From IMG/VR virus record IMGVR_UViG_3300046007_005844, positions 1 to 25,657 of that record: a stretch of 25,657 nucleotides of DNA. One strand, given 5' to 3'. Shown here one piece after another: positions 6,921 to 19,396 of this stretch. The first letter of the stretch is position 1; the number at the start of each line of letters is the position of its first letter. The position numbers and the translations under genes were made by a program. This DNA is from a virus. The notes under the pieces were generated by a model that saw only the letters and a program-made list of their open reading frames with translations, was not told the origin of the DNA and made no database searches.

Positions 6921-7094
6921 TCATTCGTCATTGCAAGATTCATTTATCCATGATGACTGTTTGTAATCTTCAGGGTTAGGCTTAGTTTTCTTTTTGAAAA
7001 TCTTATCGAAGTTTTCTTCATACAATTTTCGATTAGAGATTCTATCTCTATCACCTTTTCCTGCACCACTTGAGTTTCTTTCGTTATTAGCCAT
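6921..7094 (-). CDS. Small conserved-type phage protein (57 aa)
   Basis: Begins MANNERNSSGAGKGDRDRIS and continues NRKLYEENFDKIFKKK. Small phage proteins with the same 'sGkGD..R....yr.NyD.IF.kk' pattern recur in many phage genomes with unknown function. Charged, soluble, no membrane segment. It is the first gene after a promoter at 7129-7158 and is followed 46 bases later by the DUF2158-like gene, so the three small genes likely form one transcript ending at 6425-6448. Confidence 0.7.
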   Translation of the reverse strand: MANNERNSSGAGKGDRDRISNRKLYEENFDKIFKKKTKPNPEDYKQSSWINESCNDE

Positions 7095-16358: not shown

Positions 16359-16457
16359 TTAATTAGAATTATTTTTAACTATATTCGCCGCGATTATCCA
16401 CAGGCACAACATAACTGTAGCACACACAATAACTGCTATAAAACCACCTAAAATCAT
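16359..16457 (-). CDS. Small single-TM membrane peptide (32 aa)
   Basis: ATG at 16457 follows a strong AGGAAAAGGTG ribosome site; TAA at 16359-16361, 17 bases before the next gene. The product begins MILGGFIAVIVCATVM, continues LCLWIIAANIV and ends with a polar KNNSN. One membrane helix fills nearly the whole peptide. It is the first gene after a near-consensus promoter, so it should be well expressed. Function unknown; small membrane modulators and toxins have this form. The stretch includes a TTATCCACA (16394-16402) that equals a DnaA box but is likely chance. Confidence 0.65.
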   Translation of the reverse strand: MILGGFIAVIVCATVMLCLWIIAANIVKNNSN

Positions 16458-16542
16458 AAAATCACCTTTTCCTGTTTTGAATGAATGCCGAAAATCGGCG
16501 GGTTGTAAAAGAACGTTGTCGTGTACCGCTCCAACAATTCAA

Positions 16543-16570
16543 ATTCTACGTTAATTTGCTTCATTGTCAA
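16543..16570 (-). promoter_or_regulatory. Near-consensus promoter of the zinc-cluster operon
   Basis: -35 TTGACA (16570-16565), 16-base spacer, -10 TAGAAT (16548-16543), preceded upstream by a very A/T-rich UP-like stretch. The leader of about 78 bases contains a small hairpin GCCGA-AAA-TCGGC (16487-16499). It points away from the boxA region on the other strand. Confidence 0.75.
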
Positions 16571-16645
16571 ATAAAAAATAATTTTATTTTCAATAATAAA
16601 AAACTATTTAAACCAAAACCTATCAAAATCAACAACTTACCATGT

Positions 16646-16721
16646 GACAACTTGTCCAATTGTTTAAAATAGTGGATATATTAAACTATATCCGACAGCA
16701 ACAAAAGCCGCTCTTTAACAA
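16646..16721 (+). promoter_or_regulatory. rRNA-leader-like antitermination region: dyad, hairpin and boxA
   Basis: GCTCTTTAACAA (16710-16721) equals the boxA core of enterobacterial rRNA leaders, bound by NusB and S10 to stop Rho from ending long untranslated transcripts. As in rRNA leaders, a hairpin precedes it: GGATATA-TTAAAC-TATATCC (16674-16693). A palindrome GACAA-C-TTGTC lies at 16646-16656. The promoter is not clear: TTGTCC / GATATA at 17-base spacing (16652-16680) or GTGACA / TAAAAT at 15 (16644-16670) are candidates. Only the plus strand carries the match. Confidence 0.6.
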
Positions 16722-17380
16722 AATGGATAATCACAACTGGTAGTAATTAGGCACAATTGCGCGTTAATTATCGTTTTTACTCTATATATACGAAAATAAT
16801 TTTTTAACGTATCGCGTAAAATTGACGTATAAGACGTTTTTATTACTTAAGGCATACAATCGCATTGCTAAAGTATTAAAATGCCACCAGCGGGCAGTTT
16901 GGCACCTTAAATCGAATGCTACGCTCTAAGCCGCGCCACATATAAACAGTTTACCTGTTTGAGGCTTTTGTTATGTTATAACGTATCAACTGTTAGTTTA
17001 GCAAGGTGGTTTTATCACCACAAATTAAATTAGCTGTAAATAAATTATTTTTATTTATTTTGAAAACCTAGTCACAATGCGGGTTGTAGGCGATTCCATT
17101 ACGTCTCAAGGTGGTTTTGACCTGCAAAAGCCGCGAAAGGCTTGATTTACCTAAGTTTCAGCACAACTGGGTGAAATCCCATGCACACGAAATCCGCCCT
17201 ATAGAAGCCTTCAGAAAACGACTTCTTCAGCACACTGGTTAGCCTTCGTGTATTTCGGTTGGACACCTGAATTTGAATATGAAGGGTACAATCTGGGAAA
17301 TGATGTAGTCGTAATAAGTAGCCACAGTACGCTCACACATACTCCATGAGGTTGAAACCTCCGTTAGCTCCTAAAAAATT
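16674..17380 (+). ncRNA. Candidate large structured non-coding RNA
   Basis: About 700 bases without a credible gene on either strand but with many possible helices. Examples: AAGCC 16928-16932 with GGCTT 16963-16967 enclosing AAACAG/CTGTTT (16944-16949/16955-16960); GGTG/CACC (17005-17008/17016-17019); 8-bp AT stem (17038-17045/17053-17060); AAAACC/GGTTTT (17063-17068/17113-17118); AAGCC/GGCTT with loop GCGAAA (17128-17143); GCA+TGGG/CCCA+TGC with loop UGAAAU (17161-17184); ACACGAA/TTCGTGT (17185-17191/17245-17251); ACGACT/AGTCGT (17218-17223/17307-17312); GAGGT/ACCTC with loop UGAA (17348-17361). GAAA-like loops occur on the plus strand, matching the boxA direction. Large phage RNAs such as GOLLD and ROOL are known; I cannot assign it to either. 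Ends are approximate. Confidence 0.45.
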
Positions 17381-17391
17381 TAATTTTAATT

Positions 17392-17437
17392 TTCAAATTT
17401 GAATCTGTTTCAAATGAGAATTGCCCAGAATTCTCAT
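17392..17437. repeat. Inverted repeats at the end of the structured region
   Basis: TTCAAATTTGAA palindrome (17392-17403), whose right half can also pair with TTCAAA at 17409-17414, then a perfect 9-bp hairpin ATGAGAATT / AATTCTCAT with a 6-base loop (17414-17437). No T-run follows on either strand. It may mark the 3' end of the plus-strand RNA or protect the 3' end of the converging GIY-YIG message. Confidence 0.45.
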
Positions 17438-17467
17438 CACAAAAGCTCAATTAACCTGAAAATAATT

Positions 17468-18085
17468 TTAAGTTTCCCAAGCAAAATTAAAATTGAATCT
17501 TGATGGTTTTTCAATTTCGCTCAAACGACTATTGAGAATAGTAAGCTGCTCATTAACTTCCTTATGAAATTTTGCAATTTCGTTCATTTTTAAATCGTAT
17601 TCGGTGCGCGTGATAAAATTTGAACTGTGTTCCAAAGTATTATAAGCATTCAACAAACAGTTTAAGAAATCGCCGTTAGTGATATTGCGCTTATGTTTCG
17701 ATGTAAATCGCAATTTGGCTTGTTTAAACGCTTCTATTGATTTTGAGTTAGTTAATCTTAGAACACCGTTATTACTGCTAACGCGCTCTTTTTCTCCACT
17801 ATATAAATTTACCAAATTGTAACCATAAGGATAAATTGAATTATGTGCATTTATCATTTGTTTTTCTAACAGACGTGCTTCTGATTCAGTAGGTATATTT
17901 TCTAATAATATCTCATGTTTAAAAGAATCCCATCCGAAGTGCTGGATAGCTACGGAGAAAGCAGTACTTCCTGAGTTCTTATTTCGATGCTCTTTACATC
18001 TTTGCTCATAATGCTTTGTCATGCCAATGTATGACTTACCTTCAGGTGATGTGTGTGTATAGATTACATAACTATTTTCGTTCAT
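17468..18085 (-). CDS. GIY-YIG homing endonuclease, second copy
   Basis: 205 aa. N-terminal GIY-YIG domain about 5-95: YVIYTHTSPEGKSYIGMTKH gives the two motif strands, followed by RCKEHRN (the conserved Arg of the active site) and EARLLEKQMINAH with the metal-binding Glu. The domain closes with YGYNLVNLYSGE. Residues 110-205 lack NUMOD3 repeats and contain helical, Lys-rich and coiled-coil-like segments, probably for DNA binding. Not closely alike to the first GIY-YIG gene outside the domain. It is placed just after the structured RNA region, converging with it. AAGGA, 6 bases from the ATG, is the ribosome site. Confidence 0.85.
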   Translation of the reverse strand: MNENSYVIYTHTSPEGKSYIGMTKHYEQRCKEHRNKNSGSTAFSVAIQHFGWDSFKHEILLENIPTESEARLLEKQMINAHNSIYPYGYNLVNLYSGEKERVSSNNGVLRLTNSKSIEAFKQAKLRFTSKHKRNITNGDFLNCLLNAYNTLEHSSNFITRTEYDLKMNEIAKFHKEVNEQLTILNSRLSEIEKPSRFNFNFAWET

Positions 18086-18091
18086 AAAAAA

Positions 18092-18202
18092 TCCTTAAAA
18101 AGACTGTAAATAATAGAAGTGTGGAAAGATATTGTAGTAATCTAATCTATTAAAATACAGTCCTTTTAAGGACGTTCTCACCACAATATCAGGTTTCCAC
18201 AC
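18092..18202 (-). promoter_or_regulatory. Structured leader of the second GIY-YIG gene that can bury its ribosome site
   Basis: Message order: A 18202-18183, B 18172-18156, A' 18135-18119, B' 18108-18092. A (GTGTGGAAA, bulge CCT, GATATTGT) pairs with A' over 17 bp. B (TCCTTAAAAGGACTGTA) pairs with B' (TACAGTCTTTTTAAGGA) over 17 pairs including one G-U. B' ends with the AAGGA ribosome site, so the B-B' helix covers it fully. B can also fold on itself (GTCC/GGAC). A-A' and B-B' interleave, so they are alternatives or a pseudoknot. The rest of the gene-free stretch to the regulator gene (18243-18351) shows nothing I can name. Confidence 0.7.
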
Positions 18203-18213
18203 CGTTAGCAAGT

Positions 18214-18242
18214 ATTATTTCATATTTATCACAGAATGTCAA
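18214..18242 (-). promoter_or_regulatory. Promoter of the second GIY-YIG gene
   Basis: -35 TTGACA (18242-18237), 17-base spacer, -10 AATAAT (18219-18214). Predicted start near 18207, just before helix A. The context TGAAATAATA around the -10 is shared with 12283-12311. Confidence 0.7.
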
Positions 18243-18841: not shown

Positions 18842-18907
18842 AGTATATATACGAAATATCTATACGTCAAAAAAATAGAGTATATATAAAAAATATCGGT
18901 ATGTCAA
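18842..18907 (-). promoter_or_regulatory. Two tandem near-identical promoters of the 132-aa gene
   Basis: Promoter 1: TTGACA (18907-18902), 17-base spacer, TATACT (18884-18879). Promoter 2: TTGACG (18870-18865), 17-base spacer, TATACT (18847-18842). The two units are direct repeats 37 bases apart with largely the same spacer, so they arose by duplication. Predicted start of the second is about 28 bases before the ATG. Confidence 0.75.
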
Positions 18908-19212: not shown

Positions 19213-19258
19213 CGTTACTACGTTACGACGTTACGACGTTACTTCTGCACGACGTTAC
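19213..19258 (+). repeat. Iteron-like array with 8-bp period (CGTTAC core)
   Basis: CGTTAC occurs at 19213, 19221, 19229, 19237 and 19253, every start on an 8-base grid; the unit at 19245 (CTGCAC) is degenerate. Six units in all, of the type CGTTACGA. Short repeats of regular phase suggest cooperative binding of a small protein, for example the ribbon-helix-helix protein encoded downstream. Confidence 0.75.
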
Positions 19259-19396
19259 TTCTCAAACCCCCCCTATATACCCCCTAAAATTATTAACTTT
19301 TGCAAAAATCAACCTCTTTATCTATAAATTTCAATAACATACATCATAAAATTAGTTAATAATCACCTATAAAACCACCTATTAACTGAAATCAAA

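Follow-up and report, generated by a model that had tools for sequence, protein, structure and literature searches.

Junctions between the two divergent gene blocks of a siphophage clade hold a non-coding stretch that is conserved in position, associated with an exact rRNA-type boxA in most lineages and marked near its 3′ end by an oriented sequence motif. On sequence comparison, we consider it rather probable that a promoter–boxA leader lets the host polymerase cross this fast-evolving untranslated stretch of ~650 nt. The stretch itself most likely works as an early leader or non-coding transcript that is long and untranslated, and its 3′ element would be a functional or processing site. The preliminary description of this DNA had proposed a boxA-led, ornate RNA, perhaps of the GOLLD or ROOL families; the recurrence of boxA at the junction, the conserved 3′ motif and the plus-strand structure of one pair of relatives favour a boxA-led RNA, whereas the ornate structure and the membership of GOLLD or ROOL found no support.

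We analysed a complete IMG/VR contig of 25,657 bases (hereafter the window). Its genes include those for portal, major head protein, primase and helicase, and its terminase shares ~43% identity with the terminases of named siphophages, among them several Queuovirinae. Genes run leftward to the left of ~18.8 kb and rightward to the right of 19.4 kb, and the site lies at the divergent junction between a leftward terminase-side block and a rightward primase-side block. Related loci (n = 30) were taken from a portal-protein alignment, and the junction is covered by six lineages (the window, G001 (locus L002), G005/G006, G003/G004, G010 and G013), all of which have a gene-free stretch of ~1–2 kb between the terminase and primase blocks. 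In the window and G006, a convergent minus-strand gene comes next, and G001 and G006 have a small plus-strand ORF (47–49 aa) further on. The convergent gene of the window encodes a GIY-YIG protein whose C-terminal module exists as a small independent protein in G006 (L174 2395–2757, tblastn) and has a partial match in G001 (L002 7583–7711). No DNA similar to the window region was found in phage and plasmid records. Feature coordinates are collected in Table 1.

Table 1 Features of the junction in the window and, where a locus number is given, in its relatives.
Feature	Position	Strand	Basis or remark
Conserved block ATCAAYAACTTAYCATGYGACAAYTT, putative leftward promoter (reverse complement TTGTCR-N17-TTTGAT/ATATAA)	16628–16653	−	Predicted promoter role
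Rightward promoter candidate TTGTTT-16-TAAACT	16660–16687	+	Conserved in relatives
Perfect inverted repeat GGATATATTAAACTATATCC, hairpin before boxA	16674–16693	+	Sequence
boxA GCTCTTTAACAA	16710–16721	+	Exact sequence match
boxA equivalents in relatives	L178 2158; L179 1629	+	Junction scan of relatives
Gene-free stretch, proposed untranslated transcript 3′ of boxA	16722–17385	+	Non-coding signal; same position in six of six lineages
Conserved block ii, TTTACTCTATATATACG...AAAATTGACGTATAAGACGTTTT	16776–16841		76% to G006; strand unassigned
Hairpin GAGGT-UGAA-ACCUC, directly 5′ of CGTTAGCTCCTAAA	17348–17361	+	Comparison of lineages
Conserved 3′ motif CGTTAGCTCCTAAA (YTAGCYCC)	17362–17375	+	Best shared motif of five lineages
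GIY-YIG nuclease gene, convergent	17468–18085	−	Pfam PF01541; tblastn
Array ACGACGTTAC	19217–19260		Window
Array GGTATATC	L002 7760–8741		G001
Array TGTTTCACGTGGAACA, parS-like	L176 17365–17491		G003
Array TTGGTACCAA	L178 2940–3500		G010
Array GTGTTAACAC	L179 2570–3092		G013

Several other elements were observed around the junction. A candidate cis-acting RNA is the 5′ leader of the GIY-YIG gene (18086–18240, minus strand), which shows 90% conservation with G006 across 157 nt, contains long inverted repeats and folds strongly (z −5.6). Antisense pairing between the gene-free stretch and this structured leader was rejected, being marginal in the window (p 0.005–0.03) and absent in G006; the 7-mer CGTTAGC that the two have in common is frequent in these genomes. 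Two tandem near-perfect sigma-70 promoters (TTGACA-17-TATACT and TTGACG-17-TATACT) lie at 18842–18907 on the minus strand. Repeat or palindrome arrays, different in every lineage, precede a gene of 287–380 aa that is related in most of them. The G013 junction additionally holds a Fur box-like palindrome array resembling GATAATGATTCTCATTT (L179 1855–1965), and the G001 stretch (L002 6060–6660), which includes perfect palindromes, shows very strong self-complementarity (z −8.75); beyond it lie a plus-strand ORF of 49 aa and a terminator-like hairpin (6989–7015).

The perfect 12-base boxA named in the preliminary description is confirmed as the sole exact copy on either strand of the window, where 0.0076 copies are expected under a first-order model, and it agrees with GYTCTTTAANA, the published gamma-proteobacterial consensus (PMC5725501). 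The host itself is probably a gamma-proteobacterium. Five of the six junction stretches contain an exact boxA; in 2000 shuffles of these sequences the average was 0.12, and no shuffle exceeded two. The exact copy is directed into the stretch, toward the primase block, in the window, G010 and G013; those of G001 and G006 lie on the opposite strand and are directed toward the terminase side, and the G003 junction has no exact copy. With the one-mismatch plus-strand copy of G006 (GCTCTTAAACAA) included, a boxA is directed into the stretch in four of six lineages. The G010 copy is GTTCTTTAAAA, a sequence that boosts long untranslated CRISPR transcripts ~tenfold in Legionella (PMC7862264).

As a mark of an ornate RNA, boxA fared less well. 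The flanked form GCTCTTTAACAA(A/T)ATGG(A/T)T is present in 62 IMG/VR contigs from large sequence families, mostly with promoter-like sequence just upstream and apparently ordinary short gene leaders following, some of which look like T7-like early leaders; boxA alone is therefore no sign of an ornate RNA. Such contigs would also suit a boxA leader serving downstream early genes with the remaining stretch as unconstrained filler, as would the failure of most of the stretch to align between lineages, but the 3′ motif and a 573-nt block (both described below) are conserved where filler should vary, and we regard this explanation as very improbable. Separately, GCTCTTTAACAATATGGAT (L008–L068) recurs in leaders of phage families that look unrelated. 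No exact GYTCTTTAANANNNTGG match occurs in eight named phages whose terminase is ~43% identical or whose primase is related. The host's own rRNA leader was discarded as the source of the boxA flank, the sole genome match to the 21-mer lying in apparent coding sequence.

Upstream of boxA, the window and G006 are 78% identical over 104 bases. The rightward promoter candidate lies 22 nt upstream of boxA and is a weak sigma-70 consensus match with counterparts in G006 (TTGTTT-16-TAGACT) and G001 (TTGAAT-17-TAAACT), which would place the start of a rightward transcript near 16695. The hairpin likened earlier to that of rRNA leaders does exist before boxA, but it overlaps the −10 element of this promoter candidate and is lost in G006. 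The ATCAAYAACTTAYCATGYGACAAYTT block is common to the window, G001 and G006 at the same place, and its exact pattern is absent from all other IMG/VR contigs scanned. Downstream of boxA, the core of block ii is also found in G001 and G003, possibly as a promoter or protein site.

The long gene-free stretch was borne out. Between 16342 and 17467 there is no convincing gene except two short leftward ORFs (16359–16570), codon scores are non-coding and no relatives of translated fragments were found; on these grounds, and given the absence of codon periodicity in the G010/G013 block (below), decayed coding sequence was rejected. Structure is a different matter. In place of the ten or more helices previously suggested, folding of the window stretch does not exceed chance, with z −0.86 on the plus strand and +0.15 on the minus strand for 16690–17385, and −1.75 and −0.72, respectively, for 16646–17440. 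Fold energy is not decisive, as coding pieces of the window span −4.9 to +0.3 and the long RNA of phage ICP1 gives −3.0. Three short plus-strand windows beat their shuffles (16600–16749, z −3.3; 17000–17149, z −2.6; 17350–17499, z −3.9). Several GAAA-like loops had been noted on the same strand; three are present on the plus strand, where 0.63 would be expected (p 0.03), but none in the window stretch is a true GNRA tetraloop.

Comparison with known RNAs gave no family assignment. Rfam searches at both thresholds returned no sensible match for the stretch, weak microRNA matches being discounted because of their location on palindromes. The GOLLD covariance model (RF02032) had no match at E 10, its controls matching with none over the cut-off, and the ROOL model (RF03087) likewise had none at E 10, a weaker negative since its control was silent everywhere. 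A true large ornate RNA, a new family in the sense of GOLLD, ROOL or OLE with boxA giving processive transcription, would accord with a head-to-motif length of roughly 400–850 nt, with the plus-strand structure in G010/G013 described below, with conservation of a 3′ element greater than that of the sequence upstream of it, a pattern reported for GOLLD (PMC12286853), and with the abundant 800-nt RNA that ICP1 makes from a gene-free gap (PMC7567579). The window fold is nevertheless ordinary, as is that of the G006 stretch (z −0.28), no conserved multi-helix core can be aligned, Rfam offers no match, and 16842–17467 has no alignable homologue; in G006, all that corresponds to it is a 16-nt piece in inverted orientation. 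We therefore think an ornate RNA of this kind quite unlikely.

G010 and G013, the sole alignable pair for structure comparison, have in common a noncoding block of 573 nt that is 90% identical. Their structural genes are 98% identical while the early region neighbouring the block has almost no nucleotide similarity, indicating that these genomes are mosaics. The block contains no long reading frame, and its substitutions by codon position (17/23/19) show no periodicity. Against column shuffles its fold reaches z −2.87 on the plus strand and −0.51 on the minus strand, and this plus-strand structure, although from one pair, can be taken as the best evidence that the region may act as RNA. The block has a weak nhmmer match to the window (E 0.46), located at the conserved motif.

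This motif, (C/T)TAGC(C/T)CC, is strand-specific and lies near the 3′ end of the stretch in all six lineages, with degraded copies in G010. In an unbiased search for the best motif shared by five lineages, the CGTTAGCTCCTAAA score was higher than that of any of 60 shuffles at length 14 or 18, while at k = 24 one shuffle attained the observed score. The shorter YTAGCYC has nine plus-strand copies in the six stretches, with 0.59 expected, and no minus-strand copy; it is present in each stretch. Leave-one-out profiles ranked the junction site first in the searched locus for five of five lineages tested, and first in the whole window for the window itself; the sites had been chosen by mutual similarity beforehand, which weakens these ranks without explaining them. 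A hairpin stands immediately 5′ of the motif in the window, G006, G003 and G001, differing in sequence, with a combined p of ~0.01 by our own calculation from single values. An earlier count of shared GC-rich 9-mers (86 vs 2–11) was inflated by the homologous G010 and G013 and superseded by the star search.

An oriented motif with hairpins could also belong to a replication, partition or packaging site, with the stretch working as DNA, boxA as part of an early leader and transcription incidental. The stretch adjoins the primase block and the lineage-specific palindrome arrays, its sequence turns over fast, and the 16-nt piece common to the window and G006 is inverted, all of which would suit such a site. 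In a pure DNA element, however, a boxA directed into the stretch would have no role, the G010/G013 structure should not stand above column shuffles on the plus strand only, and YTAGCYC would not be expected to avoid the opposite strand of every junction; we judge a DNA site unlikely, though deserving of some weight. The promoter–boxA leader has its own difficulties: the window fold is ordinary, the heads of the window and G006 align while 16842–17467 does not, the exact boxA is reversed in G001 and G006 and absent in G003, and the G010/G013 block is weak in the window.

Several known systems resemble the junction in part. The boxA of rRNA leaders, which acts in NusB/S10 antitermination and is also found in suhB and upstream of CRISPR arrays, has the exact core seen in the window, where it likewise lies near a candidate promoter and heads an untranslated stretch, but here in a phage and with no rRNA or CRISPR downstream. 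The nut sites of lambda-type phages (nutL/nutR; lambda, mEpimmI phages) similarly place boxA on divergent early leaders, and G006 carries a boxA in both directions, with a single mismatch in the rightward copy; unlike these, the window core is of the rRNA type, and no boxB-like hairpin was recognised by eye beside it. GOLLD and ROOL also occupy long gene-free phage stretches with a less conserved 5′ part, but the window matches neither model, and these RNAs carry complex covarying helices; single-sequence folds of the window are ordinary, and one pair (G010/G013) can be aligned. They often, though not strictly, lie near tRNA genes, of which the 25.7-kb window has none. The ICP1 long non-coding RNA comes from a comparable ~1-kb phage gap (gp139–gp140), but that gap has no boxA and folds more strongly than the window.

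Long untranslated RNAs require protection from Rho. Under the promoter–boxA leader reading, the conserved promoter would drive rightward transcription, placing boxA near the 5′ end of the transcript, where host NusB/S10 would bind it and shield the polymerase from Rho, as is established for this type of boxA. The untranslated RNA that the shielded polymerase would then cross, ~650 nt long, would end close to the hairpin–GUUAGCUCC element, and selection would act on the ends of the stretch (promoter and boxA, 3′ motif) with rapid change between them. More tentatively, and with some doubt, the junctions may represent a family of large phage non-coding RNAs, confined to this clade, that are expressed early through rRNA-type boxA antitermination, end in a hairpin and GUUAGCYCC, have a fast-evolving middle and undergo cassette exchange, as in G010/G013. 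Confirmation of the promoter–boxA leader would reveal a phage clade using the host's ribosomal antitermination signal at a divergent control region for a long untranslated transcript, with one relative carrying boxA-like signals on both sides. The system is small and testable, and the conserved 3′ motif offers a handle for finding further members.
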